Source: an uncultured Bacteroidota bacterium
GTDB taxonomy: Bacteria; Bacteroidota; Bacteroidia; Flavobacteriales; Flavobacteriaceae
Length of the DNA stretch: 64,000 bases
NCBI GenBank assembly: GCA_913062555.1
Contig: CAJXVU010000011.1
Location: 1 to 64,000 of the forward strand
Reading direction: 5' to 3'
The notes below the pieces were generated by a model that did not search any database, had not been told where the DNA came from, and worked only from the letters and a program-made list of their open reading frames with translations. Below, in pieces: positions 2,633 through 18,944 of the stretch. The position numbers and the translations under genes are program-made. The stretch's first letter is position 1. Each line of letters opens with the position of its first letter.

Positions 2633-2652
2633 TATATTTAACTAGAAATCAA
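2633..2652 (+). promoter_or_regulatory. Putative promoter/leader of DUF6090 gene 1
   Basis: A 20-base block starting TATATTTA (a TAnnTTTG-like -7 box) is identical to the block at 8197-8216. Both lie exactly 25 bases before the ATG of a DUF6090 gene. Promoter function is inferred from the match to the Bacteroidota consensus. Confidence 0.4.
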
Positions 2653-2676
2653 CTAGCTACACTCCTATTTAATCCT

Positions 2677-3411: not shown

Positions 3412-3446
3412 ACTGATTCAAAAAAATTTGAAAAACTTACCAAGGT

Positions 3447-3567
3447 CACAAAAACTGAGTATGCTTTAATTGTTGAAGTGGTAAAATTGATCAACTTCAT
3501 GCTGAACTTGTTTCAGCATCTCATAATATTTATAACGGGCTTACTTAATTGTAGACCCTTTTTTAGT
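3447..3567 (+). repeat. Dispersed intergenic hairpin element, copy 1
   Basis: Bases 3498-3525 (28 nt) are identical to 7918-7945 and contain the hairpin TGCTGAA-cttgt-TTCAGCA. About 15 bases further on is a second hairpin (GGGCTTAC / GTAGACCC, one mismatch) ending in a T-run. The ~40 bases before (3447-3487) also resemble 7870-7905 and 21091-21129. The second hairpin plus T-run could terminate the DUF6090 transcript that ends at 3411. Confidence 0.6.
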
Positions 3568-3661
3568 TACACCTATTCACAAATGATAGCAGCCTACTAG
3601 CAAATTTATGTATCGGTGCAGAGATCACCTCTAGTGTTGAAATATAAAACGAATTAAACCG

Positions 3662-3669
3662 TACCTTTG
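3662..3669 (+). promoter_or_regulatory. TAnnTTTG promoter box, probably leaderless
   Basis: TACCTTTG ends 6 bases before the ATG at 3676, with a TTG at 3637-3639 at about the -33 position. With a start site ~6-7 bases after the box, the mRNA would begin at or next to the ATG. The same spacing is seen at 43940-43947. Confidence 0.6.
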
Positions 3670-3675
3670 CACTCT

Positions 3676-5622
3676 ATGCAAACTAAAAAACTTTCAGATT
3701 GGTTACCAACAACAAACAAAGAAGTAAAAATTCGAGGTTGGGAGGAGCTAGATGTTATATTATTTAGTGGAGACGCTTATGTAGATCATCCTTCATTTGG
3801 ACCAGCTGTTATTGGTCGTATTTTAGAAAGTTATGGATTAAAAGTAGCTATTGTTCCGCAACCAAGTGTGAACGATGATTTGCAGGATTTCACAAAACTA
3901 GGAACGCCAAAATTATTTTTTGGAGTTACTGGTGGTTGTATGGATCCAATGGTGAGTAATTATACGGCCAGTAAAAAACGCAGAGATAAAGATGCTTATA
4001 CACCAAATGGTGATAAAGGATTTCGACCTGATTACGCCACATCAGTTTATTCAAGTATTTTAAAAGATAAGTTTCCAGATATTCCTATTTTAATAGGCGG
4101 AATTGAAGCTTCTCTGCGTCGTGTAACGCACTACGATTATTGGAGTGATAAATTAATGCCAAGTATTTTAGAAACTTCTAAAGCAGATATGTTGGTTTAT
4201 GGTATGGGAGAACAACCTTTGCGAGAAGTTGTTGAGCTTTTGCAAAAAGGAGTCCCTTTTTCAAGTTTAAAAACCATAAAACAAACCGCCTTTTTAATAA
4301 ATAAAGATGAAATCATTCCTAAAAATAAAAATTGGGACGATGTAGAAATTCATTCACATGGTGTTTGTATCAAAAACAAGAAAAAGTTTGCCTCTAACTT
4401 TAAAGTTATAGAACAAGAATCAAATAAACTTAAAGCAAGACGAATTTTTCAAGGCATAAAAGACAGAACATTGGTGATAAACCCACCATTTCCAACGATG
4501 TTAGAAAAGGAAATTGATGAATCTTTCGATTTGCCTTATACACGTTTACCACATCCAAAATATAATAAACGCGGACCGATTCCTGCGTTTGAAATGATCA
4601 AATTTTCTATTAATATTCATCGTGGTTGTTTTGGAGGTTGTAGTTTTTGTACAATTTCGGCACACCAAGGAAAATTTATTGCAAGTCGTAGTGAAGCATC
4701 CATTTTAAAAGAAGTGGATATCGTTGCCAACATGCCCGATTTTAAAGGCTATTTATCAGATATTGGAGGCCCTTCAGCTAATATGTATAAGATGAAAGGG
4801 AAGATACAATCCATTTGCGACAACTGCGTGGCTCCTTCATGTATTTCGCCTGTAATTTGCAGTAATTTAGATACGTCTCATAAACCGTTAACTAAATTAT
4901 ATCAAGCTGTAGATAAACATCCTAAAATAAAAAAATCATTTATTGGAAGTGGTATTCGTCACGATATGTTAGTGCCAGAATTCAATAAGAATGCTGACCC
5001 AAAAGAATTAGATGATTATACGGAAGAAGTGATGACAAAGCATATTTCTGGGCGTTTAAAAGTGGCTCCAGAACACACCTCTGATCCCGTCTTAAAGTTG
5101 ATGCGTAAACCTTCATTTAAATATTTTCATAAGTTTAAAGAACGTTTTGATAAAATCAATATAAAGAAGAACTTGAAGCTTCAGTTAATTCCATATTTTA
5201 TTTCAAATCATCCCGCTTGTGAAGTTGAAGATATGGCAAATCTTGCCGCTGAAACTAAAGATATGGGGTTTCAGTTAGAACAAGTACAAGGTTTTACCCC
5301 TACGCCAATGACGGTTGCAACCGTTATTTATTATAGTGGATATCACCCTTATACACTAAAACCAACCAAAACTCCAAAATCTAAAAAAGAAAAGGATGAA
5401 CAACATCGTTTCTTCTTTTGGTATAAAAAAGAAAATATAGATTGGATTAGAAAAACCTTGAATAAAGTAGGTCGAAAAGATTTGGTAGACGTGTTAGTGC
5501 CAGAAACTAATTCTTGGAAAAGCATTAAGCCTAAAAACGTAAAAAACACGTTTGATGATGCGATTCCTTCCAGTTATTCTCGTCGAAAATCCAAACATAA
5601 ATCTAGAAATAAGAGGCGCTAA
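3676..5622 (+). CDS. ygiQ: YgiQ family radical SAM protein
   Basis: A 648-residue cytoplasmic protein. The N-terminal part matches the YgiQ family (WEELDVILFSGDAYVDHPSF). A radical SAM core carries CxxxCxxC as GCFGGCSFC (Cys318, 322, 325), which should bind the [4Fe-4S] cluster that cleaves S-adenosylmethionine. Additional Cys (CDNCVAPSC) and a Lys/Arg-rich tail follow. The family is widespread and its substrate is not established. A TTG nine bases upstream is in frame, but I chose ATG 3676 because the promoter box TACCTTTG overlaps that TTG. The pseudouridine synthase gene follows 29 bases downstream. Confidence 0.93.
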   Translation: MQTKKLSDWLPTTNKEVKIRGWEELDVILFSGDAYVDHPSFGPAVIGRILESYGLKVAIVPQPSVNDDLQDFTKLGTPKLFFGVTGGCMDPMVSNYTASKKRRDKDAYTPNGDKGFRPDYATSVYSSILKDKFPDIPILIGGIEASLRRVTHYDYWSDKLMPSILETSKADMLVYGMGEQPLREVVELLQKGVPFSSLKTIKQTAFLINKDEIIPKNKNWDDVEIHSHGVCIKNKKKFASNFKVIEQESNKLKARRIFQGIKDRTLVINPPFPTMLEKEIDESFDLPYTRLPHPKYNKRGPIPAFEMIKFSINIHRGCFGGCSFCTISAHQGKFIASRSEASILKEVDIVANMPDFKGYLSDIGGPSANMYKMKGKIQSICDNCVAPSCISPVICSNLDTSHKPLTKLYQAVDKHPKIKKSFIGSGIRHDMLVPEFNKNADPKELDDYTEEVMTKHISGRLKVAPEHTSDPVLKLMRKPSFKYFHKFKERFDKINIKKNLKLQLIPYFISNHPACEVEDMANLAAETKDMGFQLEQVQGFTPTPMTVATVIYYSGYHPYTLKPTKTPKSKKEKDEQHRFFFWYKKENIDWIRKTLNKVGRKDLVDVLVPETNSWKSIKPKNVKNTFDDAIPSSYSRRKSKHKSRNKRR

Positions 5623-5651
5623 TTATAGGCTATCCTTCAAGAAACTTGCCA

Positions 5652-6338
5652 ATGCCGAAGCTTGTAGTATTACATGAAAACAACGATTATCTAGTGGTAA
5701 ACAAAGCTGCTGGACTTATTAGTGAAAAAAGTCCTTACGAAGCAGTGACTGTTGAGACTCAAGTTTTCAATCATCTTTTAAAACATAAACGTAAGCCCTA
5801 TATTGGTATCATACATAGATTAGATCGCGTAACAAGTGGCGTATTAATTCTGGCAAAGAAAAAAAGTGTTCTGGTAGTATTTAATACTCTATTTAGTAGT
5901 CGTAAAGTTCAAAAAACATATTTAGCAATTGTTAAAAACAATCCAGCAAAGAACAAAGGAACCTTAGTAAACTTTCTGATAAAAAATAACAAAGAAAAAA
6001 AGGCAGATATCGTCCAATCAAAATCAAAAGACGCTTTAAATTGCTCGCTTTCCTATCAAGTTATAGGCAAAAACGATTTCGGTTATCTTTTAGAAGTTAA
6101 GCCAAAAACTGGTCGATTCCATCAAATACGAGCCCAATTAGCAAATATAGGACTTCCTATTATTGGAGATGAAAAATATGGTTCAGATCAAGAGTATTTA
6201 CCGCTGTCTATTTGCCTTCATGCTTGGAAATTAACATATGAAGTCTCTGGTTCTGCAGCATCTAAGACCTTCGAAGCACCTTTACCTAATAACGTTTTTT
6301 GGACATTTAAAAATACAATTAAATCCGATTGGGAGTAA
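5652..6338 (+). CDS. RluA-family RNA pseudouridine synthase
   Basis: A 228-residue protein that converts specific uridines in rRNA or tRNA to pseudouridine. The signature HRLDRVTSG contains the catalytic Asp58. It is preceded by the V-V-N-K-A-A-G-L motif, and the late K-P-K-T-G-R-F-H-Q-I-R motif is complete. The protein has no S4 domain, as in the small RluA/RluC/TruC-like types, so the target site cannot be named. I use ATG 5652 rather than a TTG six bases earlier. It follows ygiQ by 29 bases in the same direction and is probably co-transcribed with it. Confidence 0.9.
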   Translation: MPKLVVLHENNDYLVVNKAAGLISEKSPYEAVTVETQVFNHLLKHKRKPYIGIIHRLDRVTSGVLILAKKKSVLVVFNTLFSSRKVQKTYLAIVKNNPAKNKGTLVNFLIKNNKEKKADIVQSKSKDALNCSLSYQVIGKNDFGYLLEVKPKTGRFHQIRAQLANIGLPIIGDEKYGSDQEYLPLSICLHAWKLTYEVSGSAASKTFEAPLPNNVFWTFKNTIKSDWE

Positions 6339-6394
6339 TATTGTAGATTGTAGCAAATAAATCACAGATTGGTGTCTAAATGTTCTACGTAATA

Positions 6395-6883
6395 ATGAAA
6401 AAATACTTTTTAATAATACTTATGATTTCGCTATTTACTTGTACGACAACAAAAGAGATATCACAAGCAAAACCATATACCGATTTCAAAATTGTAAATA
6501 CGCCACTCAAAGTGGAAAACAAGACCTTATCATTAAATGAGCTTCGGTTTTATGAAATTCAATCAGCAATGGATGGCATGAAATTGATGTATCAAAATTA
6601 TGGGAAATGGAACAAAAAAATAAAAGGTAAACATCAACAAAATATTGAAAGAATTATTTGGCAGAATATTAAACTAATTGATGGAGACATTAAGACTTTT
6701 ACAGTCATTGCAGATGGAACTGAAACTATGACTAACTATTTTGCTTGCCTTATGGTTTTTGATTCAGAAGAAAAGGATTGCTTCAAGACCGGACATCCAT
6801 ATAAAGAAAAATTAACTGAATTATTTGTGGACAAAATGAGTAGAATAGATAAAAAGACTTCAGTTTATAGATTGTTTAGATAA
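6395..6883 (+). CDS. Small putative lipoprotein, function unknown
   Basis: A 162-residue protein with a type II signal peptide (MKKYFLIILMISLFTC) and lipobox Cys at residue 16. An earlier in-frame ATG at 6380 would place five extra residues before the signal and is less likely. The mature part is mixed alpha/beta, with no domain that I recognise. A hairpin terminator follows about 50 bases downstream. Confidence 0.6.
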   Translation: MKKYFLIILMISLFTCTTTKEISQAKPYTDFKIVNTPLKVENKTLSLNELRFYEIQSAMDGMKLMYQNYGKWNKKIKGKHQQNIERIIWQNIKLIDGDIKTFTVIADGTETMTNYFACLMVFDSEEKDCFKTGHPYKEKLTELFVDKMSRIDKKTSVYRLFR

Positions 6884-6934
6884 CTAACGACTAACAACAC
6901 TGATTATATTCTAAATTAAAAATCACCAATTTGA

Positions 6935-6961
6935 GGAATCCCGACACTGGATTCTTTTTTT
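6935..6961 (+). terminator. Rho-independent-type terminator
   Basis: Stem GAATCC (6936-6941) pairs with GGATTC (6949-6954) across a 7-base loop, followed by seven T. It lies ~50 bases after the lipoprotein stop at 6883. Its layout resembles the hairpin + T-run parts of the dispersed elements at 3.5, 7.9, 17.4 and 18.4 kb. Confidence 0.6.
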
Positions 6962-6965
6962 GTTC

Positions 6966-7110
6966 ATAGCCTATTGTATAATTAGCCATGCACCAATTGG
7001 CCAATTCGCTAAAAATGTCTACAGGAAATTTATTTAACGCTTTGTCCGTTTTTTATAGATTTCCTAGTCGCATATAATAGAAATGCTAGCATCTTAACTG
7101 TCACTAATGT
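6966..7110 (+). repeat. Intergenic repeat, copy 1 of 2
   Basis: This stretch aligns over ~140 bases with 7986-8122, sharing blocks such as ATTCGCTAAAAAT, TTAACGCT and GTCACTAAT in the same order. No coding potential is visible. It directly follows the terminator at 6935-6961. Confidence 0.5.
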
Positions 7111-7151
7111 CTCACTTTGAGGATTAGAAATAAATTTCGACAAGCATTATA

Positions 7152-7700
7152 TCAATTCAGTTTCTGAGGTCCTTGAGAGTTATGATGTATCAGCCAGTGT
7201 TCATCCTGGATGGATTTATAAATAATCTTATAATTCATCCCATCTTCGAGCAAAAATTTAATGGTTTGAGCCATCAATAAAAATTCTTCTGATGAATCGC
7301 TAACTCTTAAAATATTATATATAGAATTAGCGGGAATAGCCATGCCCTTTGACATAGGTGAATGAGAGTAACTTTTTATGCTGTCCAACTTTGGAGCTAA
7401 AAAGACCAAGAATTTATACATTTTATTATCAAAATCAATTAAATTGTAAGTAGTGTCTTTATAAGTAACATTAACCGATTCAATTATTGCTGGCCCTACA
7501 CCATGATTCTGTAAATTTAGTTCAAAGACAGGAGCAGCTGAATTAGTTGTGGTGGCCACTGTGAGGTAAGGCAAAATAGACAGATAGTTCTGCTTGCGCA
7601 TTAAGTTAGTCTGATATATAAAAATAAGTAAAGTAAAAAAACTCATACTCATTGCAGAGATACTAAGCATTTTTTCGGAATTCCATTTAATTTTTGACAT
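7152..7700 (-). CDS. Hypothetical membrane-anchored protein
   Basis: A 182-residue protein with one N-terminal transmembrane helix (about residues 10-30, ending Q-T-N-L-M-R-K-Q) followed by a ~150-residue soluble domain. The region L-N-L-Q-N-H-G-V-G-P-A-I-I resembles beta-rich domains of other single-pass hypothetical proteins, but I cannot assign a function. It is the only minus-strand gene before 11.1 kb and is flanked on both sides by copies of intergenic repeats. Confidence 0.65.
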   Translation of the reverse strand: MSKIKWNSEKMLSISAMSMSFFTLLIFIYQTNLMRKQNYLSILPYLTVATTTNSAAPVFELNLQNHGVGPAIIESVNVTYKDTTYNLIDFDNKMYKFLVFLAPKLDSIKSYSHSPMSKGMAIPANSIYNILRVSDSSEEFLLMAQTIKFLLEDGMNYKIIYKSIQDEHWLIHHNSQGPQKLN

Positions 7701-7869
7701 AAGCGTTTTATATAAGTCCTAACTCAAATGTACTAAAAATCTTCAGATAGCTGTGTTAGAATTACTTGAATGATGCTCAGGTTTTCATGTTAGGAATATG
7801 TGCGATCTAAAAACACAAACTGCACAAAAGTAATATTGTCCCACAAAAATTGCTCTTATAAGGCTCACC

Positions 7870-7978
7870 AAAACTGAAGATGCTCTAATAGTTGAAGTTG
7901 TAGAATAACAAAAACGTCATGCTGAACTTGTTTCAGCATCTCATATAGAATAAGGAATCTCAATACGAGGTTACTTTT
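7870..7978 (+). repeat. Dispersed intergenic hairpin element, copy 2
   Basis: The block 7918-7945 is identical to 3498-3525. It is followed by the hairpin AATCTC-aatac-GAGGTT and seven T (about 7952-7977). No plus-strand gene precedes it, so it is not an ordinary gene terminator. Confidence 0.6.
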
Positions 7979-7985
7979 TTTATTT

Positions 7986-8122
7986 ATAGACTATTACATA
8001 ATTACTCCCCGCGCCAACAAGCACATTCGCTAAAAATATCCACAGGACATTTTCTTAACGCTCTGTCCCCTTTTTCATACCTCATAGTAGCAAATGCGAG
8101 CATATTTACGGTCACTAATTTG
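7986..8122 (+). repeat. Intergenic repeat, copy 2 of 2
   Basis: Aligns with 6966-7110 in the same orientation. As in copy 1, it directly follows a hairpin + T-run. Confidence 0.5.
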
Positions 8123-8196
8123 TTGCTTTCCTAAAATATTGAAGACAAATCACAGCCAATCAGTATAGTTAGTATTCAATTCTGAATAAGAATTAC

Positions 8197-8216
8197 TATA
8201 TTTAACTAGAAATCAA
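8197..8216 (+). promoter_or_regulatory. Putative promoter/leader of DUF6090 gene 2
   Basis: A 20-base block identical to 2633-2652, at the same 25-base distance from the start codon. It begins with the -7-like box TATATTTA. Confidence 0.4.
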
Positions 8217-8240
8217 ACAGATACTCACCCATTCATTTCT

Positions 8241-8987
8241 ATGATAAAATTCTTTCGGAAAATCCGTAAACAATTAATATCGGAGAACAAGTTCAGCAAA
8301 TATTTAATTTATGCAATTGGAGAGATATTATTGGTAGTAATTGGAATTTTGATCGCTATTCAATTAAACGAATCCCGAAATAATAGCTTTAAACATAAAC
8401 AAAAAGAAAATATCTTAAAGACATTGCAGTTGGAATTTCAATCGAATCTTTCACAACTTGATACTGTCTTGTATTATAATCAAAAAATAATAAATGCTTA
8501 CCCAAAAGTAATTGAGCAAATTAAATCACAACATATAGTTACAGATGAAAAAAAAGTTCGTGAAATGATTACAGATTTAGCTTATACTTGGTCTTTTAAT
8601 TCAAGTAACGGTTCACTTCGCTCAGGAATTTCATCTGGAGAAATTCATTTAATTAATAGTAATCGTCTTATAGAATTATTATTTAGCTGGGAAGATGTTG
8701 TAAAAGATTCATATGAGGAAGCTAATCAATTAAGAACACATCAATATGGTGCTATGCACATTTACCAGGACTATTTTAGAATTGGAGATCTCTGGGCAGG
8801 AATTTTTTCGGGATTAGACAGCAGAAATTATACACCGGACTTTCAGGGTTTGTTTAAAGATATATCATTTGCAGATTATGCGAGCATAAGATTTATATAT
8901 TCCACCGATTATGTAACTGAATTGAATGTTTTGAAGAGTCAGAATTTGGAAATTATGGAATTGATTGATCAAGAATTGTCAAAATAA
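8241..8987 (+). CDS. DUF6090 family membrane protein (paralogue 2)
   Basis: A 248-residue protein. Residues 1-45 (MIKFFRKIRK..., then Y-A-I-G-E-I-L-L-V-V-I-G-I-L-I-A) repeat the basic head and single transmembrane helix of paralogues 1 and 3. After N-E-S-R-N-N the sequence diverges almost completely, though it remains helical and charged. The topology is probably N-in with a ~200-residue periplasmic domain. The amidohydrolase gene starts 39 bases downstream in the same direction, so the two are likely one operon. The function of DUF6090 is unknown. Confidence 0.85.
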   Translation: MIKFFRKIRKQLISENKFSKYLIYAIGEILLVVIGILIAIQLNESRNNSFKHKQKENILKTLQLEFQSNLSQLDTVLYYNQKIINAYPKVIEQIKSQHIVTDEKKVREMITDLAYTWSFNSSNGSLRSGISSGEIHLINSNRLIELLFSWEDVVKDSYEEANQLRTHQYGAMHIYQDYFRIGDLWAGIFSGLDSRNYTPDFQGLFKDISFADYASIRFIYSTDYVTELNVLKSQNLEIMELIDQELSK

Positions 8988-9026
8988 CGAAAATCTAACA
9001 CGCTTAGACACAATAAACACGAGCAT

Positions 9027-11027
9027 ATGAGAACAATACCAATACTATTAATTCTATCAGTAATTACACTGTCCTGCAGCAAGACTGAGCAAACAACTAA
9101 TTATGAAAATTTAAAATACAACTTGTATTTTGGAGACAATAAGGCAGGCTATTTTGAAAGCTCTTTAGCTATTGACGGTTCTTATCAATATGTATTTGAA
9201 TATAATGATAGAGGTAGAGGTCCTCACTTAGAAGAATCAATATGGTTAAATCAAGATGGTCTTATTGAAAAAATTCAAATCCAAGGCCATAATTATTTAA
9301 AAGATACCGTCACTGAGACATTTAGTCTAAGTCAAAATGAAGCAAAATGGGAAAGCACTTCAGAAAATGGAAGTTCCAAACCACAGCATAACGCATTTTA
9401 TGTTGGTGTTAATAGCGCTTTTGGAAATACCGAATTGCTTATCCGGAAAATGCTGAGCAGTCCTGACAACTCAATTAACCTATATCCCAGCGGGAAATTA
9501 AAAATTACAGCTGTCGATAATATTCAAGTCAATGACAGTCTAAATCTAAAACTTATTGAATTCGTTGGGTTTGCTTTCACTCCAAATTATTTTTGGTTTG
9601 ATATGGATGATCGCTTTTTTGCAGCACCTTCTTCGTGGCTCTCAGCAATTAGAGATGGCTATGAACCTATCTCGCAAAAGCTTTTTGAAATACAGACGGC
9701 CAAGGAAAAAGAGTACTATGCTAAAACAGCCGAGGCACTTACAGAAATACCTGAAGGACGTGTCTTGATATCAAATGTGAACCTATTTGACGCCGAAAAT
9801 GGTAGCATGCTCAACAATAGGTACGTCATATTGAATGGCAATAAAATCGAAAATATCTTAGAGAATGACACCAACCTTCCAGAGGTAACCAAAATTATTG
9901 ATGGGACCAATAAAACTCTACTTCCTGGTCTTTTCGATATGCACACCCATATGGATCGATCTGGGGGCATTTTAAACCTTGCAGCTGGAGTTACTTCAGC
10001 CAGAGATTTGGCAAATTCTTTTGACTTACCAGAAATCAAAGAAGAGTTTGACAATAACACTGTGATAGGTCCTAGGATTTTAATAATGAGTGGTTTTATA
10101 GATCAGGCAGGTCCATATGCAGGTCCAGTGGGTAAAATAATTAACAACCTCGAAGAAGGGATTGAAGCTATTGAATTCTACAAAGAAAGAGGCTACCAGC
10201 AAATTAAGTTATATAGTTCCATAGATCCTGACTGGGTAAAACCACTTGCCGAAAAGACACATGAACTTGACATGAAGTTAAGTGGCCATATTCCATCCTT
10301 TATGCATGCCGATCAAGCCATAAAAGATGGCTATGATGAAATTCAGCATATCAATATGCTCGCTTTGAATTTCATGTCGGATACCCTCGACACTCGAACA
10401 CCTCTACGGTTTTCAATGATTGGAGAACAAGCACATACCATTGATTTCGAGGGCGAGGAATTCTTGACTTTTGTCAAACTTCTCAAAGATAAAAATATCA
10501 TTATAGACCCTACGGTTTCCTTTTTTGAAGGGATGCTAGCCACTAAGGCTGGACAACCAGACCCTCAATTTGAAGAAATCCTTGACCGACTACCAATTCA
10601 AGTGAAAAGGGGGTTTTATTCTGGAGGATTACCAATCCCTGAAGGAAAAGAAAAACAATTCAAAGACTCATTTGACAAGCTCCTCGAAATGATAAAAATA
10701 CTGTATGAAAATGGGATCACTATAGTTCCTGGGACTGATGCGCTGCTTGGATTTGGACTCCACAAAGAACTTGAAAATTATGTGAAAGCTGGGATTCCAG
10801 CTAGTGATGTCCTTAGAATGGCTACTATCATTTCTGCTCAAGTCACCGGCCATGCCGAGACATTAGGATCCATACAAATAGGCAAGCTTGCGGATGTCAT
10901 ATTGATTGATGGCAATCCACTGGAAAATATAAGTGATATTAGGCGTGTCGAACTTACCATAAAAAATGGTTACATCTATAATGCCCGAGCTCTATATGAA
11001 GCCATTGGCACCAAGCATTTTAAATAA
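9027..11027 (+). CDS. Amidohydrolase-family lipoprotein with extra N-terminal domain
   Basis: A 666-residue lipoprotein (lipobox Cys17). Residues ~25-235 form an N-terminal domain I do not recognise, with features of a beta-rich carrier or sensor domain. Residues ~245-655 are a metal-dependent amidohydrolase TIM barrel of the imidazolonepropionase/prolidase-like group. The ligand set is complete: His306-x-His308, Lys394 (candidate carboxylated Lys in Q-I-K-L-Y), His421, His441 and Asp571 in PGTDA. It is expected to hydrolyse an amide or peptide bond outside the inner membrane. It probably forms an operon with DUF6090 paralogue 2. A second amidohydrolase lies at 13247-14680. Confidence 0.85.
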   Translation: MRTIPILLILSVITLSCSKTEQTTNYENLKYNLYFGDNKAGYFESSLAIDGSYQYVFEYNDRGRGPHLEESIWLNQDGLIEKIQIQGHNYLKDTVTETFSLSQNEAKWESTSENGSSKPQHNAFYVGVNSAFGNTELLIRKMLSSPDNSINLYPSGKLKITAVDNIQVNDSLNLKLIEFVGFAFTPNYFWFDMDDRFFAAPSSWLSAIRDGYEPISQKLFEIQTAKEKEYYAKTAEALTEIPEGRVLISNVNLFDAENGSMLNNRYVILNGNKIENILENDTNLPEVTKIIDGTNKTLLPGLFDMHTHMDRSGGILNLAAGVTSARDLANSFDLPEIKEEFDNNTVIGPRILIMSGFIDQAGPYAGPVGKIINNLEEGIEAIEFYKERGYQQIKLYSSIDPDWVKPLAEKTHELDMKLSGHIPSFMHADQAIKDGYDEIQHINMLALNFMSDTLDTRTPLRFSMIGEQAHTIDFEGEEFLTFVKLLKDKNIIIDPTVSFFEGMLATKAGQPDPQFEEILDRLPIQVKRGFYSGGLPIPEGKEKQFKDSFDKLLEMIKILYENGITIVPGTDALLGFGLHKELENYVKAGIPASDVLRMATIISAQVTGHAETLGSIQIGKLADVILIDGNPLENISDIRRVELTIKNGYIYNARALYEAIGTKHFK

Positions 11028-11155
11028 AGTCGGTCTAAAATATGATGTTGTACTAGTCTCAACGTGCCTATTTTAAACAGCATTGAAAAATTGATAATTT
11101 ATTAGTTATTAAACACCTCTAGAGGCAGGTCCTATATCTGGACGTTCTAGTTAAT

Positions 11156-11653: not shown

Positions 11654-11789
11654 TTATATCATTTTCTTTTTCAAAGCTAATATTTATTTAGAATGTAATT
11701 GTACTGGATAGAAAATAAAAAGGTATTCCAAAGGTTTTTTAAATTCAACTTCGATGAATCCCTTCTACTTTTGTTTAAAACATAATAAA

Positions 11790-13103
11790 ATGAAAAAAAT
11801 TAAACATATTAGCTTAATCCTATTAAGTATTAATTCCTTATACGGACAAAATATAAACGGAAGATATGAAGGAGCAGTTTCACGAGACGGCTCAGTTCAA
11901 CTGGTGAGTTTTGATTTTTATAATGAAGAAGGAATTCAAAAAGGCACCTATGAAATTCCAGAGAATGGTTTTTTTGACGTGCCCATTGATGACATTAAAT
12001 TAATCAATGACACATTACATTTAAAGTTTTATTTTGGGAACTTTTTTTGCTTTATAAGCGAAAATAAAAAAGAAATAACAGGTATAAGCGAAAAATGGAA
12101 TCCTAAAATACGTCTACATATAAAAGAGTCCTATAAAAAGGAAAAACCTTATGCACAAAAGAATATAACATTTCAGAATGGAGATATTCAACTTTCAGGA
12201 ATGCTATACAAGCCTAGAATTGAGATGAGAAATACTGAGAAATATGTCATCCTTGTACATGGATCTGGAGCTCAAGATCGCTTTTCCCCATACTACATTT
12301 CATTAGCTCATAGGCTTTCACTGGAAGGATTTGGGGTGTTACTATATGACAAAAGAGGAACAGGTAAATCTTCAGGCAATTTTGAAACAGCCTCTATAGA
12401 AAATCTCGCCGACGACGCCGTCGCTGCCTATAACTATTTAAAGGCATTAAATGGAAGAAATCAAATTGAAGTTGGCTATCTTGGAACAAGCCAAGGCGGT
12501 TGGATTGCTCCACTTGCTGCAAAAAAAGTTGGAGATTGTGATTTTCTTATTCTAAATGTAGGGCCTGCTGTTTCCGTATTCAAGCAAGATTTGCATCGTG
12601 TTGAATATTCTATGAATGCTGATGGATGGAATCAATCTGATATTGACTTGGCAGTTGCTTATACAAAACTTTACTTTCAATTCGCCACGGATAAAAAAGA
12701 GAATATATGGTCTAAACTTCAAGATTTAATTTTAGAAGTTAAGCATAAGAAATGGGTTGAATATGTAAATATTCCCAAAAACAAGGATGATTTTGATTGG
12801 TGGACAAATAACAATTATGATCCAGAAACAACGCTAAAGAATCTTAATTGCAGAACATTATGCTTATTCGGGGAGTTTGACCCTCTTGTCCCTCCGAAAG
12901 AAAATGTAAAATTAATGACTGAATATTTAACAACATCAAAAATTAAGCATGAAATTAAAGTAATTCCAGGGGCTCTTCATGACATGAAATCCTTTCAAGG
13001 TTTAAATGGGGATAATTGGAATTGGCCAGTTGTCTTCTGGGAATGGCGTTCTGAACCTGACGAGTATATGGACAGTATTATAAAATTTTTAGATAAAAAC
13101 TAA
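11790..13103 (+). CDS. Secreted alpha/beta hydrolase
   Basis: A 437-residue exported protein with an N-terminal signal peptide (MKKIKHISLILLSINSLYGQ). An in-frame ATG 36 bases upstream would add a hydrophilic stretch before the signal, so I use 11790. Residues ~25-120 form a beta-rich accessory domain. The alpha/beta hydrolase fold follows, with oxyanion region V-H-G-S-G-A-Q-D, nucleophile elbow G-T-S-Q-G-G (Ser234), acid G-E-F-D-P and base in G-A-L-H-D-M. This is the layout of secreted esterase/S9-like hydrolases; the substrate is unknown. It is transcribed divergently from the CadC-like regulator. Confidence 0.85.
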   Translation: MKKIKHISLILLSINSLYGQNINGRYEGAVSRDGSVQLVSFDFYNEEGIQKGTYEIPENGFFDVPIDDIKLINDTLHLKFYFGNFFCFISENKKEITGISEKWNPKIRLHIKESYKKEKPYAQKNITFQNGDIQLSGMLYKPRIEMRNTEKYVILVHGSGAQDRFSPYYISLAHRLSLEGFGVLLYDKRGTGKSSGNFETASIENLADDAVAAYNYLKALNGRNQIEVGYLGTSQGGWIAPLAAKKVGDCDFLILNVGPAVSVFKQDLHRVEYSMNADGWNQSDIDLAVAYTKLYFQFATDKKENIWSKLQDLILEVKHKKWVEYVNIPKNKDDFDWWTNNNYDPETTLKNLNCRTLCLFGEFDPLVPPKENVKLMTEYLTTSKIKHEIKVIPGALHDMKSFQGLNGDNWNWPVVFWEWRSEPDEYMDSIIKFLDKN

Positions 13104-13246
13104 CGACAATACGCACGAACTACATTGCTAATACATGCCTACTTACGAAAATTTTAGAGGATTTACTATCCAGTTTTTATTTACTAAATTGCACGCTCAA
13201 AAAACACATCGAAAATATACATCAACGCTTAGTGATAATTAGATAA

Positions 13247-14680
13247 ATGAAATTATTAAAACGAATTATTAAAATTGTCTTCATACTCATTGGAGTCCTG
13301 TTAATTACAATTGTTATCATCCTTGGAATTGATGCTCAAAAAACCAGTTATTTGAAAGTCAAAAAGAATGAGTTTGCAAATAATGATTCTTATCTTATTA
13401 TCAACGCGAATATTATCCCAATGCATCAAGACACTATTTTAATTAATAAAATGGTGTATATCAAAGATGGTATAATCCAAACCATTGCAGACAGAATTGA
13501 AATCAAAGACGTTGAAATTATTGATGCAAAAAACAAATATCTAAGCCCAGGCCTTATAGATATGCATGTGCATGTATGGGATAGATATGAACTTGGTTTA
13601 TATCTATCTAATGGCGTTACAGCGGTGCGCAATTTATGGGGTATGCCCATGCATTTAAGAATTAAAGATGCTATAAATAATGACGAAATTATTTCGCCTA
13701 TGTTTTTTACTACGGGGCCTAAACTAACCGGTCCAGAATTTATAGGAGATGATAATTTAAACTTAACAAATCCCAATGAAGCAATAGAAAAAGTGATTTC
13801 ATATAAAGATAGAGGTTACGATTTTATTAAAACCTACTACGGTTTAACACCAGATATATTTGATGCCGTTGTAGAACAAGCAGCGAAATCAAACATGGAT
13901 ATTGTTGCACATCCTTCACCAAAAGTGCCTTATGATTATCATTTTAATCCACAAATAAAATCTATAGAACATGCTGAGGAGATTATACAACAGCCATTAA
14001 ACTATAGTTTAGATACCATTAAATTAAAAGAGATAATTAATGGTTTTGAAAAATCAAAACACAGTTCCTTTAGTCCAACTTTAACGGTTTACAATAATAT
14101 TTATCAAATGCTCATTGATGATAATATTTTAACATCAGAGCGACTACAATTAATGAATCCACTTATTAAGAAAACAGATAGTAAGGCTCAATTTGATAGG
14201 TGGTATAATACTAAACAGGACGATTATTCTATTGTTGAGACCATAAAAAATCAACATAATTTTCATTTAAATATTCTTAAAAAGCTTCATGAAGCTGGCA
14301 CAACTATTATCTGCGGTACTGATGCAGGAATAGGCGTAACTGTTCCAGGGTATTCTATTCATCAAGAACTGGCTTTTTACAAAGAAGCTGGGCTCTCCAA
14401 TTATGAAGTTTTAAAAACAGCCACGGTGAATGCTTCTAAAACCCATTCCGTTATGAGTAATATGGGAACCATTGAAGTTGGCAAAGTTGCAAATCTAATA
14501 TTAATTGAGAATAATCCTTTATTAGACTTATCCGCATTGCAAAACCCCTCAACTGTTTTCATAAAGGGTAAAAAGTTAAATAGAGAGACACTTAATCATT
14601 TTGAAAATCAGGCAAGAAATAGAAAAAACTTAATGGCTTCTGCTCTGCGATACCTAGAAAATTTGGTGTTTGAAAAATAG
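13247..14680 (+). CDS. Membrane-anchored amidohydrolase
   Basis: A 477-residue protein with an N-terminal transmembrane segment (about 8-28), not a lipobox. The amidohydrolase domain has ligands His107-x-His109 (DMHVHV), Lys195 (F-I-K-T-Y), His222 (AHPSP), His242 (IEHAEE) and Asp359 (GTDAG). It belongs to the same imidazolonepropionase-like subgroup as the lipoprotein at 9027-11027 but lacks its extra N-terminal domain. Hydrolysis of a small amide or dipeptide in the periplasm is inferred. DUF6090 paralogue 3 begins 130 bases downstream. Confidence 0.85.
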   Translation: MKLLKRIIKIVFILIGVLLITIVIILGIDAQKTSYLKVKKNEFANNDSYLIINANIIPMHQDTILINKMVYIKDGIIQTIADRIEIKDVEIIDAKNKYLSPGLIDMHVHVWDRYELGLYLSNGVTAVRNLWGMPMHLRIKDAINNDEIISPMFFTTGPKLTGPEFIGDDNLNLTNPNEAIEKVISYKDRGYDFIKTYYGLTPDIFDAVVEQAAKSNMDIVAHPSPKVPYDYHFNPQIKSIEHAEEIIQQPLNYSLDTIKLKEIINGFEKSKHSSFSPTLTVYNNIYQMLIDDNILTSERLQLMNPLIKKTDSKAQFDRWYNTKQDDYSIVETIKNQHNFHLNILKKLHEAGTTIICGTDAGIGVTVPGYSIHQELAFYKEAGLSNYEVLKTATVNASKTHSVMSNMGTIEVGKVANLILIENNPLLDLSALQNPSTVFIKGKKLNRETLNHFENQARNRKNLMASALRYLENLVFEK

Positions 14681-14781
14681 CCTATCGCTAATAAGGTATA
14701 TTGCTCATACGTGCTTTAGTAATAAATTTAAATACTAACACGAAGGCCTTCACGACGCCATCCTAATTTAATTTATTATCA

Positions 14782-14789
14782 TACCTTTA
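14782..14789 (+). promoter_or_regulatory. Putative -7 box of DUF6090 gene 3
   Basis: TACCTTTA lies 21 bases before the ATG. The following AACTAGCTAC (14794-14803) also occurs in the leader of DUF6090 gene 1 (2651-2660). Confidence 0.35.
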
Positions 14790-14810
14790 GAGAAACTAGC
14801 TACTATTCTA

Positions 14811-15530
14811 ATGATAAAACTCTTTAGGAAAATTCGACAACGACTAATTACTCAAAACAAGTTCAGTAAATATTTACTATATGCCATTGGTGAAATTGTG
14901 CTTGTTGTCATTGGGATTTTGATTGCGTTGAGTGTCAATAATTGGAATGAATCATATAAGGTTAACAAAAATATAGCGACCCTACTCAAAGACTATCGAG
15001 CCGATTTAGTGATGGACACCTTAATGTTATCTGCTTTTATAGACAATGGCAAAACTAGAATTGAAACTGAACAAAAAAACATTAGCAGAATGAGTGGTCC
15101 AAACGCAACTTTGGATACGGTAAAACATATTGCCAAGTACGAACATGATCCATTCATCAATATTATAGAAAAGTATAGCAGTAAAAATACTTTCAATTCT
15201 ATGATCGGAACCTCTGCGTTTAAATTATTAGATCAAGTATTGAAACGAAAAATATTAAACCTTGATGTATATCAAACAATAACCTTGAATGAAAAAATGA
15301 TTAATCAATATTTTGAATTAACAAGGGAATATACGCTCGACTATCCCTTTGGAGACAACCTTGGTTCGGGATATTTAAATGAGATTTCATGGAAAATTCA
15401 AAACGAAAGAGATTTTGTAGTGAAATACACTGCGATGTGCACTTTTAAAACCCTCCTAATATTCACAAAAATAAACAGTTACACTAAAGCCATGCAACTC
15501 ACAAAACAGTTGATATCAGAATTGGATTAA
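14811..15530 (+). CDS. DUF6090 family membrane protein (paralogue 3)
   Basis: A 239-residue protein with the same N-terminal module as the copies at 2677 and 8241: MIKLFRKIRQ, one helix Y-A-I-G-E-I-V-L-V-V-I-G-I-L-I-A-L, boundary S-V-N-N-W-N-E. It then has its own divergent helical domain of ~190 residues. It sits between an amidohydrolase gene and an alpha/beta hydrolase lipoprotein gene, all on the plus strand. That neighbourhood parallels paralogue 2. No function is known. Confidence 0.85.
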   Translation: MIKLFRKIRQRLITQNKFSKYLLYAIGEIVLVVIGILIALSVNNWNESYKVNKNIATLLKDYRADLVMDTLMLSAFIDNGKTRIETEQKNISRMSGPNATLDTVKHIAKYEHDPFINIIEKYSSKNTFNSMIGTSAFKLLDQVLKRKILNLDVYQTITLNEKMINQYFELTREYTLDYPFGDNLGSGYLNEISWKIQNERDFVVKYTAMCTFKTLLIFTKINSYTKAMQLTKQLISELD

Positions 15531-15625
15531 TATATTTCTGATGAAAATTCTAAAAACTGAATTAATTAGTATTACCAATTATTAAAAGCAAACACTTTAA
15601 TAGTTAACTCATAAAAAAGAAACCA

Positions 15626-16585
15626 ATGAACCCAATTTTTAAAATGCCATCCATATTTATTATTTTGTTCTTAGTGACACTATCCTGTAAAACAGAGCAT
15701 AATGATATTGAAGTAACAAAAATCATCTCAAACACCATTGAAAAAACATCGCTAATAAAACATACTGTATTATCAGAAGGACATCCAATGGCTGTATGGG
15801 AAAAGAAAATTGATAATCCTAAAGGGCTTATTCTTTTTGTACATGGCCGTACATGGAGTGGTGTTCCCGATTTCGATTTACAAGTAGATGGTGAAGATTT
15901 ATCTTTAATGGATGGATTGACCGCAAAAGGCTACACAACATATGCTGTAGATTTAAGAGGGTATGGAGACACCCCAAGAGATGCTACAGAATGGGCCACT
16001 CCCAATGTTGCTTCAAACGACATTCTCAATGTTTTAAAATGGATTTCTGTTCAAAATAACAATATCAAGGTTCATTTATTTGGATGGTCTATGGGGTCAA
16101 CATTAACCTTATTAGCAACTCAAAAAAATGCAAATGATATTGCAAGCTTGACGGTATTTGGATATTGGCAAGACTTAGATTTTGAGATTCCTGAAACTCC
16201 AAAAGATTTTCAGTTACAAAAAAGTGTAAATACCGCAGAGAATGCGGCAAGTGATTTTATAACGCCTGGGAGTATCAGTCAAAAAGCTATCGATACTTAT
16301 GTAAAAATGGCATTAGAAAGTGACCCTATCAGGGCTGATTGGAAAGATGGAAACGAATATAATAGTATTGATCCCGCATTAATCACAACCCCCGTTCTAA
16401 TTTTACAGGGAGAATTTGATCCCGTTTCACCTACAGAAAATCAAGCAAAATTATTCACTCGACTCAAATCTTCAGATAAAAGTTGGGTGGTTATTTCAGG
16501 TGGAGACCATGCTGCTTTTATGGAAACACCAAGAAAACATTTCATTCATTCATTTACAGAATTTATCAATAGATTTAATGACTAA
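15626..16585 (+). CDS. Alpha/beta hydrolase lipoprotein
   Basis: A 319-residue lipoprotein (lipobox Cys21 in L-V-T-L-S-C). Motifs are oxyanion loop F-V-H-G-R-T-W-S, nucleophile elbow GWSMGS (Ser155), acid in G-E-F-D-P-V-S-P and base in G-G-D-H-A-A-F. The catalytic triad is complete. The substrate is unknown; an esterase, lipase or lactonase role is possible. It follows DUF6090 paralogue 3 by ~95 bases and may share its transcript. A strong hairpin separates it from the convergent repeat-protein gene. Confidence 0.82.
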   Translation: MNPIFKMPSIFIILFLVTLSCKTEHNDIEVTKIISNTIEKTSLIKHTVLSEGHPMAVWEKKIDNPKGLILFVHGRTWSGVPDFDLQVDGEDLSLMDGLTAKGYTTYAVDLRGYGDTPRDATEWATPNVASNDILNVLKWISVQNNNIKVHLFGWSMGSTLTLLATQKNANDIASLTVFGYWQDLDFEIPETPKDFQLQKSVNTAENAASDFITPGSISQKAIDTYVKMALESDPIRADWKDGNEYNSIDPALITTPVLILQGEFDPVSPTENQAKLFTRLKSSDKSWVVISGGDHAAFMETPRKHFIHSFTEFINRFND

Positions 16586-16600
16586 TGGTTTAATAAGAAA

Positions 16601-16628
16601 AAACCAGTAATTAAATAATTACTGGTTT
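16601..16628. terminator. Hairpin terminator between convergent genes
   Basis: The near-perfect palindrome AAACCAGTAATTA / TAATTACTGGTTT (13-base arms) is preceded on the plus strand by an A-run. It therefore reads as a hairpin plus T-run for the minus-strand gene at 16651-17217. The same palindrome recurs at 17638-17665 as part of the tandem duplication. Confidence 0.75.
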
Positions 16629-16650
16629 AAGTATATATATTCAGGTCTGT

Positions 16651-17217
16651 TTATTGGTTAACACTAACCGCGACGATGCTTTTTTCCATGCCTTTATAAG
16701 GATTAAAATTGTAAGGTAAATAAGCCTTGGTATTAAAACCTATTTCTATGGCTTCTTCCATTTCTATTAATTCAATAGTAGACCAATCTAAATCGTCTTT
16801 CCCTTTTAAAGCATTAAAGTTTTTTGGTAGATACTTAGACGTATCAAATCCTAATTCCACTTCTTCTTCTATTTCAATCAATTCGATTGTAGACCAATCC
16901 AAATCGTGCATTCCTTTTAAGGGATTAAAGTTCGCTGGTAAACACATTGTGGTATCAAAGCTTAATTCTACTGCCTCTTCTATTTCAATAATCTCAATAT
17001 CATTGATCTCAAGAGCTTCAGTATTTGTATCGTCTACACTGGAAAAAAGTAATTTTTCCAATTTGTATTGTTCACTACTCATATTATTATTTAATGAGTC
17101 ACAGTCTTTGTTAATTTTAGCGGTGATATTCAATGTAAATAATACGCTAAGTAAAAAAGTTAATAGGTATTTGCTATTATTTTTTATGTCGGTTTTGTTT
17201 AGTTCTATTGTTTTCAT
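16651..17217 (-). CDS. Secreted acidic 37-residue-repeat protein A
   Basis: A 188-residue exported protein. After a 17-residue polar head comes a hydrophobic signal segment (about 18-33). Residues 75-188 are three tandem repeats of 37 residues (75-111, 112-148, 149-185 plus end), with consensus E-L-I-E-I-E-E-x-V-E-L-G-F-D-T, Y-L-P-x-N-F-N-x-L-K-G and D-L-D-W-S-T-I. The repeats are very acidic and alternate hydrophobic residues as in beta strands. I recognise no named domain and no sorting signal. About 23 of 188 residues differ from protein B by my count, and repeat 2 is almost unchanged. A binding or surface role is conceivable but not shown. Confidence 0.75.
   Translation of the reverse strand: MKTIELNKTDIKNNSKYLLTFLLSVLFTLNITAKINKDCDSLNNNMSSEQYKLEKLLFSSVDDTNTEALEINDIEIIEIEEAVELSFDTTMCLPANFNPLKGMHDLDWSTIELIEIEEEVELGFDTSKYLPKNFNALKGKDDLDWSTIELIEMEEAIEIGFNTKAYLPYNFNPYKGMEKSIVAVSVNQ
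16654..16995 (-). repeat. Three 111-bp coding repeats in protein A
   Basis: In-frame 111-base units (16885-16995, 16774-16884, then 16773-16654) encode the 37-residue repeats. Blocks such as GACCAATC(T/C)AAATCG recur on the plus strand once per unit in the first two. Confidence 0.8.
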
Positions 17218-17369
17218 TATTCCTGTAATTAAGTTTGATTGATACTATATAGACGACCATAATTTACAATTGTTACAGTACTATGCTTTGCACAATAGCA
17301 AATTAACAAACTTTAACACATAAGACACAGATAACCAACTCCTCACGATCAGTCCAAATAGAAAAGAAT

Positions 17370-17426
17370 GAGTTTCAACAGCTTATAATATGGATAAAGG
17401 AACCTCAAGACAGGGTTCCTTTTTTG
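17370..17426 (+). repeat. Dispersed intergenic hairpin element, copy 3
   Basis: The segment AGTTTCAACAGC...ATATGGATAA aligns with the segments after the shared 28-base block at 3.5 and 7.9 kb. It is followed by a perfect hairpin AAGGAACC (17397-17404) / GGTTCCTT (17414-17421) and T-run. No plus-strand gene lies upstream, so it is not an ordinary terminator. Confidence 0.55.
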
Positions 17427-17637
17427 ATTGTAGAATCTCTTTTTATTCCCCTACTTGCTGAATGGCCCATAAATTTATCCTGAGATCTTGCACTGTACTT
17501 TGACACTGATCAGTAACCAATCAGAAATGAAGGACTTAAAATGCCAATCAGACATATTTTATACGCACTATTTTGTTGAAAATCTATACCTATTTACTTT
17601 CAGAGACAAGTTTGGTTTAATATCATATAAAAAGAAA

Positions 17638-17665
17638 AAACCAGTAATTAAATAATTACTGGTTT
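17638..17665. terminator. Hairpin terminator of repeat-protein gene B
   Basis: Same 28-base palindrome as at 16601-16628. Here it has A-runs on the left and T-runs on the right, so it could act on both strands. Confidence 0.72.
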
Positions 17666-17687
17666 TTTGATATAAATTCAAGTCTTC

Positions 17688-18254
17688 TTATTGGTTAACA
17701 CCAACCACGACGATGCTTTTTTCCATGCCCTTATAAGGGTTAAAATTGTAAGGTAAATAAGCCTTGGTATCAAAACCTATTTCTATGGTTTCTTCTATTT
17801 CTATTAATTCAATAGTAGACCAATCTAAATCGTATTTCCCTTTTAAAGCATTAAAGTTTTTTGGTAGATACTTAGACGTATCAAATCCTAATTCCACTTC
17901 TTCTTCTATTTCAATCAATTCGATTGTAGACCAATCCAAATCGTGCATTCCTTTTAAGGGATTAAAGTTTTCTGGTAAATATATTGAAGTATCAAAAGTC
18001 AATTCTACTGTCTCTTCTATTTCGATAATCTCAACATCATCGATTTCAAGAGCTTCAGTATTAGAATCATCTACATTGGTAAAAAGTAATTTTTCCAATT
18101 TGTATTGTTCACTACTCATTCTATTATTTAATGAGTCACAGTCTTTATATATTTTAGCCGATATATTCAATGTAAATAATACGCTAAGTAAAAAAGTCAA
18201 TAGGTATTTGCTATTCTTTTTTATGCCGGTTTTGTTTAGTTCAGTTGTTTTCAT
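17688..18254 (-). CDS. Secreted acidic 37-residue-repeat protein B
   Basis: A 188-residue paralogue of protein A from the tandem duplication, the same length and without gaps. It has a signal segment at ~18-33, a ~40-residue linker containing M-S-S-E-Q-Y-K-L-E-K-L, then three 37-residue repeats (75-188) ending I-V-V-V-G-V-N-Q. Replacements relative to A cluster in the N-terminal linker and repeat 1, whereas repeat 2 and flanking residues are nearly unchanged. This may reflect constraint or gene conversion. Function unknown; it is presumed exported to the periplasm or outside. Confidence 0.75.
   Translation of the reverse strand: MKTTELNKTGIKKNSKYLLTFLLSVLFTLNISAKIYKDCDSLNNRMSSEQYKLEKLLFTNVDDSNTEALEIDDVEIIEIEETVELTFDTSIYLPENFNPLKGMHDLDWSTIELIEIEEEVELGFDTSKYLPKNFNALKGKYDLDWSTIELIEIEETIEIGFDTKAYLPYNFNPYKGMEKSIVVVGVNQ
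17691..18032 (-). repeat. Three 111-bp coding repeats in protein B
   Basis: Same arrangement as 16654-16995, offset by 1037 bases. Confidence 0.8.
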
Positions 18255-18944
18255 TATTCCTGTAATTAAATTTGATTGATACTTAATAGACGACCATTAA
18301 TCACAAATGTTACAGTACTATGCTTTGCACAATAGTAAATTAACAAACTTTAACACACAAAGCACAGAGAACCAACTTCTAAAGGCAAATTCATATAGAA
18401 AAAGATAAGTTTAAACAGCTTATAATATGGAGAGTAACCTCGTGTTGAGCTTCATTTTTGATTCCAGAATCTCTCCATATTATGCCGAGACACCTCGTAC
18501 ATGAGTTTATCCTAAGCACTTCCTTTGTAAATTTTGCTTATAACCAAACATTGTTGAAGGGCTTAAAATGCCTTAGAGACTTTTTTTACACGCTGTCCTT
18601 CTATCTGAGCGAAATAAATTTTGCAAAACAAACCTATACCTAATATCTTTATAACATATCTGTTTTGCTAACCATACTATGAAAAAATATTTTAACGATT
18701 ATTCTGAAAGTATAATGCTTGACATTCAATGATTTAGAAACACTATCAGGACTACGCCAAAATGTTGTCGACAAAAGTTTAGAAAACACAAAATAGGGCG
18801 AATAAAAAGCACTGGAAGTTAGCTGTTTTATGAAAATCAAACGATTATTAACGTTGTTGGTCGAATTATTTGGTATTTCATCGGAAATGGCTTAGATTTA
18901 CGCTATCATTTAATATTTACTTTGAAGCCCCATTTCAAACTATC
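18255..18944. other. Gene-poor spacer before the hybrid kinase
   Basis: This 690-base region contains the duplicated upstream region of gene B (18255-18440) and hairpin element copy 4 (18408-18459). The remainder, ~18650-18944, has no recognised structure. Short ORFs here (for example 18458-18643) have no signal peptide or recognisable content, and I do not consider them genes. Confidence 0.55.
18408..18459 (+). repeat. Dispersed intergenic hairpin element, copy 4
   Basis: AGTTTAAACAGCTTATAATATGG matches copy 3 in most positions (shown here in pieces: AGTTTAAACAGC, then TTATAATATGG). The hairpin has decayed to AACCTC / GAGCTT before a five-T run. Confidence 0.45.

Follow-up and report, generated by a model that had tools for sequence, protein, structure and literature searches.

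Displaced lysS 3' ends as probable insertion scars in a Flavobacteriaceae genome, and a candidate enzyme for CGTC-tagged REP palindromes

Introduction

The 3' end of lysS (lysyl-tRNA synthetase) harbors integrative and conjugative elements or genomic islands in Streptococcus (PMC4701971) and the vanD islands in Enterococcus (PMC8301612), and these Firmicutes islands carry direct repeats of the gene end, 13-17 bp long and near the stop codon, at their far side (PMC4701971; PMC8301612). In the orphan-immunity arrays of T6SS, serial insertions displace the old 3' end of an effector gene downstream (PMC5361080; PMC9711863). CGTC-tagged REP palindromes were surveyed in 2013, and no associated enzyme gene was found (PMC3733652). 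In the RAYT-REP system, a small enzyme gene, a tyrosine transposase, is flanked by GTAG-tagged REPs of its own class.

The window analyzed here is the first 64,000 nucleotides of contig CAJXVU010000011.1 (C11 below) of an uncultured Flavobacteriaceae bacterium (GCA_913062555.1), in which a first-pass annotation had described four intergenic hairpin sites as a dispersed family of structured RNAs or REP-like units. We consider it highly probable that these sites are insertion scars, that is, displaced lysS 3' ends stacked behind an insertion hotspot. As in the Firmicutes islands, the lysS 3' end would be the target and the gene end is directly repeated at the far side; unlike in those islands, the segment that is repeated or replaced measures ~230 nt in the class with integrases or ~55 nt of coding sequence in the class of the window, and the window has several layers stacked up but no integrase. 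The serial displacement of an old 3' end resembles that in the T6SS arrays, but here the gene is an essential housekeeping gene and the cargo is unrelated to it.

Displaced lysS ends in the window

The four sites were confirmed at 3498-3567, 7918-7978, 17370-17426, and 18408-18459 (sites 1 to 4), each with a hairpin and T-run behind it, and only site 1 has a plus-strand gene end ahead of it, that of the gene that stops at 3411. The stretches 3498-3525 and 7918-7945 indeed share one 28-base sequence, CATGCTGAACTTGTTTCAGCATCTCATA, without a mismatch, with 0 such matches expected by chance. The following features were assigned, with identities and E values from a whole-genome search.

3436 to 3529, plus strand: copy 1 (site 1), the last ~50 nt of the lysS coding sequence, with the frame kept but the stop lost, and the REP palindrome; 86% to the lysS 3' end on contig C58, E 1.7e-25
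3537 to 3564, plus strand: terminator hairpin GGGCTTAC/GTAGACCC with T-run
6934 to 7047, plus strand: lysS terminator and downstream region behind gene 6380-6883, overlooked by the first-pass annotation; 84% to the lysS 3' region, E 1.7e-28
7846 to 8068, plus strand: copy 2 (site 2), the C-terminal codons of lysS including its stop (7846-7908), then REP, terminator, and downstream region; 83% to lysS, E 1.4e-52
16591 to 18627 (right limit approximate), no strand: tandem duplication of two ~1.03 kb units
17372 to 17425, plus strand: site 3, displaced lysS terminator region; 80%, E 1.5e-6
18409 to 18459, plus strand: site 4, tandem-duplicate partner of site 3, in register via the ~1.03 kb duplication
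18870 to 21035, plus strand: hybrid histidine kinase, directly adjoining lysS in several relatives
21080 to 21129, plus strand: the most strongly decayed remnant of a lysS tail, ~48 bp past the kinase, weak alone and overlooked as such before
31874 to 64000, no strand: conserved block trailing lysS in relatives

The left edge of copy 1 is at about -54 relative to the lysS stop. At sites 1 and 2, the similarity reaches ~50 bases upstream into lysS codons (KLTKVTKTEYALIVEVVK; RLTKTEDALIVEVVE and stop), and at site 2 it also extends ~100 bases downstream, continuing more weakly to ~8100. Each ~1.03 kb unit holds a minus-strand gene for a 188-aa repeat protein (16651-17217 and 17688-18254) followed by the displaced terminator; the same repeat-protein gene is found in locus L229, between lysS and a second lysS tail. 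The palindrome is absent from sites 3 and 4. The 16 bases of the core claimed to be common to all sites are, taken alone, not significant at sites 3 and 4 (4 matches versus a shuffle mean of 1.9; 4 reached in 13 of 100 shuffles). Site 3 is supported instead by its longer alignment to the lysS terminator, and site 4 is not independent evidence because it is the tandem-duplicate twin of site 3. Pair counts over the four sites would be non-independent, since two form one duplication and all derive from a single gene end, whose successive displaced copies account for the sequence that the sites have in common. The likeness formerly reported at ~21091-21129 is real but weak (NISKPEANLIIEVVK versus VTKTDDALIVEVVE in lysS); in the relative G084, a lysS-tail remnant lies ~53 bp behind the same histidine kinase, which apparently marks the original gene beside lysS.

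Throughout the 3.8 Mb genome, lysS-tail copies were found only at 3.4-17.4 kb of C11, all on the plus strand, besides lysS itself, which is on the minus strand of C58; the sites are thus not dispersed. Their divergence grows with distance from lysS (86%, 84%, 83%, 80%, then weaker). Because the conserved block at 31874-64000 follows lysS in relatives, the contig was located downstream of lysS, and the window's genes trail lysS in order in G008 and Pontimicrobium aquaticum (LysS 91% identical). Judging from synteny alone, the window appears to lie directly downstream of lysS, with the gene just off its left end; the ends of C58 and C11 do not overlap, and their junction is unsequenced in this 89%-complete draft genome.

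The hairpins said to change in sequence while keeping their pairing turned out to be intrinsic terminators of lysS. A G+C-rich stem with a T-run behind a gene end was found at lysS 3' ends, at 6933-6957, and within site 3 at 17396-17422. Intrinsic terminators were present at the lysS 3' ends of 101 of 165 relatives, versus 14 after shuffling, with the same sequence types as among the window hairpins, and the one at 3537-3564 is of the type seen in G005 and in the Flavobacteriaceae locus L291. Terminator-like sites as such are not commoner in positions 1-20000 than in shuffled sequence (10 versus 9.7), and the sharing of lysS 3' UTRs among distant genomes was mostly uninformative.

The REP palindrome in the lysS end

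3495 to 3525, plus strand: CGTC-type REP with head CTTC, containing the 28-mer (definition from PMC3733652)
7915 to 7945, plus strand: CGTC REP with intact CGTC head

The 28-mer appears by its sequence to fit the published CGTC-REP superfamily (PMC3733652), known from Bacteroidetes, in which the head is CGTC (or TGTC/CCTC) and a stem of 8-9 bp starting with A-T encloses a 4-5 nt loop. CGTC stands at 7915 and in lysS on C58, and CTTC at 3495; ATGCTGAA-CTTGT-TTCAGCAT forms an 8-bp stem beginning AT with a 5-nt loop. The outer pairs covary, being complementary at -1/+1 in 26 of 35 cases (9.6 shuffled) and at -2/+2 in 32 of 35 (19.3 shuffled), so the proposal of a REP-like unit was upheld for the 28-mer, while that of a structured RNA was not, an Rfam scan having yielded nothing at gathering thresholds. 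The palindrome is multicopy and dispersed: five exact REP cores are present in the organism's own genome, and cores occur in 17 of 60 relatives. The stem is followed by CTCA/TCTCA, versus a short unpaired tail that mostly fits CCA in CGTC REPs, and, unlike the REPs of PMC3733652, the window REP sits as a passenger within the 3' end of lysS. Its head is not the GTAG of RAYT-REP, and no RAYT was among the Pfam-scanned window genes.

Duplicated lysS tails in other Flavobacteriaceae

Downstream duplicates of lysS tails were found in about ten other Flavobacteriaceae. Tail-only duplications affect 9 of 166 lysS genes versus none of the 723 genes that are conserved in 10 or more loci (p 2e-7). The lysS count is inflated, as tail matches were themselves the reason for including some genomes (the unselected rate is ~3%, 2/78 in the named set). 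Some 1550 other genes gave three candidate tail copies, none a clean 3'-terminal one. One to three ordinary genes lie between copies; the histidine kinase gene is a lysS neighbor in seven loci, and the repeat-protein gene in L229 and L240.

The left edges of the copies vary widely (-231, -219, ~-155, -124, ~-100, ~-96, -59, and ~-55), and a single att core was therefore rejected for the small cassettes. Such variation is unexpected of integrase-type recombination at one att core unless the edges were eroded. A seemingly sharp right boundary at +162 vanished on realignment, as the similarity runs past it.

Some relatives carry integrases at this position. The island of G002 comprises a tyrosine integrase, HTH_17, Phage_CRI, cargo with weak PADLOC matches, and a second lysS tail at 88%. 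G177 has a broken integrase immediately ahead of a second tail that starts FFPQMRPE. In G184, an integrase and a DRT gene, a reverse transcriptase strongly matching RT_UG13a in PADLOC, lie behind lysS on a contig that stops before any second tail could show. Only three integrases close to that of G002 were found behind ~168 lysS genes, and one distant integrase lies 7 kb away in L184. The functional lysS tail of G177 shares 91% identity with that of G184, which has the same integrase, whereas the displaced tail of G177 shares 92% identity with that of G137. In G177, G005, and L229, lysS is mosaic, the gene end having been replaced by the element's copy, and all three switch at about -255 to -195, near the codons FFPQMRPE ~231 nt before the stop; low concordance is not unique to the tail, as the N-terminal region of LysS is also poorly concordant with the rest. 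Both the window and about ten relatives have direct repeats of the lysS 3' end on the distal side. Tests of window genes up to 48 kb turned up no integrase, so the window was not filed as an intact integrative element. Searches of phage and plasmid records for the lysS tail, and of viral contigs for the G002 integrase, returned nothing and thus no free form.

Proposed origin of the displaced ends

We propose that foreign DNA would have been inserted repeatedly behind lysS, that each insertion would have brought a fresh 3' end of lysS with its terminator, and that the previous 3' end, still carrying a REP and a terminator, would have been shoved downstream and then decayed. The process may have started by site-specific integration into the lysS 3' region, with the integrase genes since lost from the window. 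The window copies start at about -54 to -57, not at -231, owing either to crossover at a second position, to erosion, or to illegitimate recombination assisted by homology. As the window is without an integrase, we infer its recombination step: an integrase-type step has about an even chance, homology-facilitated illegitimate recombination is somewhat less likely, and there is a slight chance of another process.

Homology-facilitated illegitimate recombination as a rival to site-specific integration, in which incoming DNA with a donor lysS end and its neighbor gene would pair on its left with the lysS already present and join on its right to the old lysS tail at a random position, would need no integrase, and we regard it as possible rather than probable. 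It accommodates the variable left edges and the cargo of one to three ordinary genes, the inserted kinase and repeat-protein genes adjoin lysS elsewhere, in seven and two loci respectively, and the T6SS arrays with displaced 3' ends are a published parallel (PMC5361080); however, it should strike other conserved genes too, with 0 cases in the 723 controls, and three mosaics share one switch point. Duplication of the lysS end on the spot, with no foreign DNA involved, would explain the tandem sites 3 and 4 and the near-tandem tail copy without cargo in G036, but we find it improbable given that differing, unrelated genes lie between copies and that lysS tails are mosaic with other lineages. Still less credible, and very unlikely, is the original view of a dispersed REP or structured-RNA family landing in intergenic spaces: the 28-mer is a true REP with covarying pairs, but the similarity runs into lysS codons and terminator, the whole element has no other copies in the genome and no Rfam match, and sites 3 and 4 lack the palindrome.

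A candidate enzyme for CGTC-tagged REPs

We are inclined to think that CGTC-tagged REPs have an enzyme, a small GIY-YIG nuclease whose gene lies between two matching REPs, and that this system includes the 28-mer of sites 1 and 2. REPs flank all five alphaproteobacterial GIY-YIG genes on both sides, versus 1 of 206 other genes on the same stretches, and 14 of 30 Flavobacteriaceae loci have matched palindromes on either side, versus 1 of 600 controls. The nuclease and palindrome sequences diverge in step (Mantel r 0.52), and at two Sphingobium empty sites there is a single REP where a relative has REP-gene-REP. GIY-YIG genes with matching flanking CGTC REPs occur in several phyla. The nuclease would either spread the REPs or home into them. 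The arrangement resembles RAYT-REP in that a small enzyme gene is flanked by REPs of its own class, but the enzyme is a GIY-YIG nuclease, not a tyrosine transposase, and the tag is CGTC, not GTAG.

Conclusion

What seemed to be an RNA or REP family would thus become a readable history, in which worn copies of the end of an essential gene record successive gene captures at one spot, roughly datable by the decay of the lysS tails. A hotspot targeting lysS would be placed in Flavobacteriaceae, where lineages exchange tails and the cargo includes defence genes. Through the stray palindrome in the scar, a candidate enzyme emerges for CGTC REPs, which may answer a question posed as open in 2013.

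Displaced lysS ends in the window

Four intergenic hairpin and T-run sequences, as reported by the first-pass annotation, are present in the window (3498-3567, 7918-7978, 17370-17426, and 18408-18459; sites 1-4), and the 28-base identity between sites 1 and 2 is far above chance. The core proposed to be shared by all of them has, taken alone, no significance at sites 3 and 4; site 4 is a tandem duplicate of site 3. The palindrome, used as a query in a whole-genome search, matched the 3' end of lysS (lysyl-tRNA synthetase gene) on contig C58, and the lysS 3' region was aligned to the window.

Matches of the lysS 3' region in the window
3436-3529: lysS 3' region match, 86%
6934-7047: lysS 3' region match, 84%
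7867-8068: lysS 3' region match, 83% (E 5e-53)
17372-17425: lysS 3' region match, 80%

The LysS C-terminus is still readable in site 1 (KLTKVTKTEYALIVEVVK) and site 2 (RLTKTEDALIVEVVE*), a more decayed lysS tail lies at ~21080, 3' of a histidine kinase gene, and the divergence of the tail copies rises with distance from the left end of the window.

The 28-mer has an 8-bp stem, a 5-nt loop, and a CGTC head, with strong covariation in the pairs next to its fixed core. It fits the CGTC-REP superfamily, which has no dedicated transposase according to its authors (PMC3733652), while its tail deviates from the CCA consensus of that superfamily. The suggestion of a REP-like family is thus borne out for the 28-mer, but the sites themselves are lysS-tail copies, found at significant levels genome-wide only at the four matches listed above on the window's contig (C11) and at lysS itself; the remaining significant matches were to the palindrome alone, on contig C81. 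A structured-RNA family, also suggested, was not supported: the sites matched no RNA family, and their hairpins, which vary in sequence while pairing is kept, are lysS-type terminators. Within 170 nt, 101/165 lysS 3' ends have a terminator-like hairpin, compared with 14 after shuffling; the stems include AAGGATTTAC/GTAAATCCTT and AAGGAACC/GGTTCCTT.

Three DUF6090 paralogs lie in the inserted zone (2677-3411, 8241-8987, and 14811-15530), one ending just 5' of the tail copy at site 1 (3436..3529) and another starting just 3' of that at site 2 (7846..8068). Two duplicated 188-aa proteins (16730-18035) contain an internal 111 bp repeat; a different repeat protein occupies the equivalent position 3' of lysS in the relative G227. 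A second dispersed palindrome (CATTCGCTAAAAATGTC...GACATTT) occurs in the lysS 3' region (window 7003-7031 and 8024-8052; C58 1192-1220) and elsewhere (contig C34 6272-6300; relatives G005, G024, G025, and G026).

Placement and recurrence downstream of lysS

In the relative G008, lysS is followed by the genes of the window from 31.9 kb onward, in the same order. The closest LysS found (91%) is that of Pontimicrobium aquaticum, where lysS is followed by a kinase homolog and then by a block matching the window from 31.9 kb on. A homolog of the aminotransferase at 40583 lies within 10 kb downstream of lysS in 65 of ~166 loci. Judging from this gene order, C11 is located downstream of lysS (the junction itself is unassembled), and approximately the first 19 kb of the window, including the tail copies within them, were added between lysS and the kinase.

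Tail duplication recurs in relatives and is lysS-specific. A second same-strand lysS tail lies downstream in G002, G005, G036, G084, G177, G216, G227, L229, and L291, and a weak one in G135. A survey of 1719 genes in 167 loci yielded 9 lysS genes with tail-only duplication; three non-lysS candidates had 64-69% identity and no clean 3'-terminal copies. Clean tail duplication was absent from all 723 non-lysS genes that are conserved in 10 or more loci (p = 2e-7, which is optimistic because part of the genomes were chosen through tail matches); in a named set assembled without such selection, 2/78 had a lysS-tail duplication.

Integrases, mosaic lysS genes, and proposed mechanism

In G002, lysS is followed by a tyrosine integrase gene, then by genes for HTH_17 and Phage_CRI proteins, by cargo, and finally by another lysS tail (230 bp, 88%). 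The two closest relatives of this integrase (G184 and G177) likewise lie 3' of lysS; the contig of G184 ends inside the integrase gene, and in G177 a broken integrase is followed by a second lysS tail starting FFPQMRPE. The functional LysS tail of G177 shares 91% identity with the G184 tail, and its displaced tail 92% with the one in G137. LysS of G005 and L229 has its body from one lineage and its tail from another; at the DNA level the switch point in G177, G005, and L229 lies between about -255 and -195 (nt before the lysS stop), with a return switch near -60 in L229, close to where the window copies start on the left. Concordance along LysS is poorest at the tail.

The N-terminal part likewise shows poor concordance with the remainder of LysS (165 proteins, alignment columns 24-120), hinting at exchange or convergence there. 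Islands at the lysS end (loci L078 and L339) carry likely defense cargo: G184 has a DRT-type reverse transcriptase (RT_UG13a), and G002 encodes a 37-kD nucleoid-associated protein whose neighbors are unnamed.

The displaced lysS ends, their position and decay order, the lysS specificity, the mosaic lysS genes, and the integrases of some islands are shown by the data. We infer that each block was placed either by a reaction of the integrase type within the lysS 3' region or by homology-assisted illegitimate recombination, the latter being plausible because the small cassettes have variable left edges and carry no integrases. ICEs of Firmicutes are documented to target the 3' end of lysS (PMC4701971; PMC8301612), and sequential displacement is documented in T6SS arrays (PMC5361080).

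GIY-YIG nuclease genes between REPs

On C81 of the same genome (L044 2195-2733), a small gene for a GIY-YIG nuclease has the palindrome on either side. Two-sided palindromes were found in 19/30 Flavobacteriaceae GIY-YIG loci, 14 of them matching, versus 12/600 and 1/600 control ORFs, respectively; shuffling the palindrome partners gave a mean of 5.9 matches (maximum 11). Matching palindromes lay on both sides in 8/12 named records of other groups. A stricter CGTC search gave 5/5 GIY-YIG genes versus 1 of the 206 other genes within those 245 kb (p = 2e-9); in Bacteroidota this search succeeded on both sides in only 20/59 loci. Nuclease identity was correlated with palindrome similarity (r = 0.52, p <= 0.0005; 57 loci, host relatedness still included). 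In Azospirillum lipoferum (L422 23340-24020), a GIY-YIG gene separates sufB from sufC, and neither it nor a REP is present at this position in three relatives (L427-L429); Sphingobium TYG74 and TYG64 (L430, L432) have an empty site with one REP, and TomTYG46 (L426 24270-24780) has REP-gene-REP.

Matching two-sided CGTC-tagged REPs around small GIY-YIG genes occur in Bacteroidota, Alphaproteobacteria, Neisseria, and Aeromonas (loci L044; L351-L409; L410-L415, L420, L421; L422-L426). No paper on this link was found in a literature search whose scope excluded preprints and most subscription journals. CGTC REPs were previously without a known enzyme, and this lead may outweigh the lysS finding.
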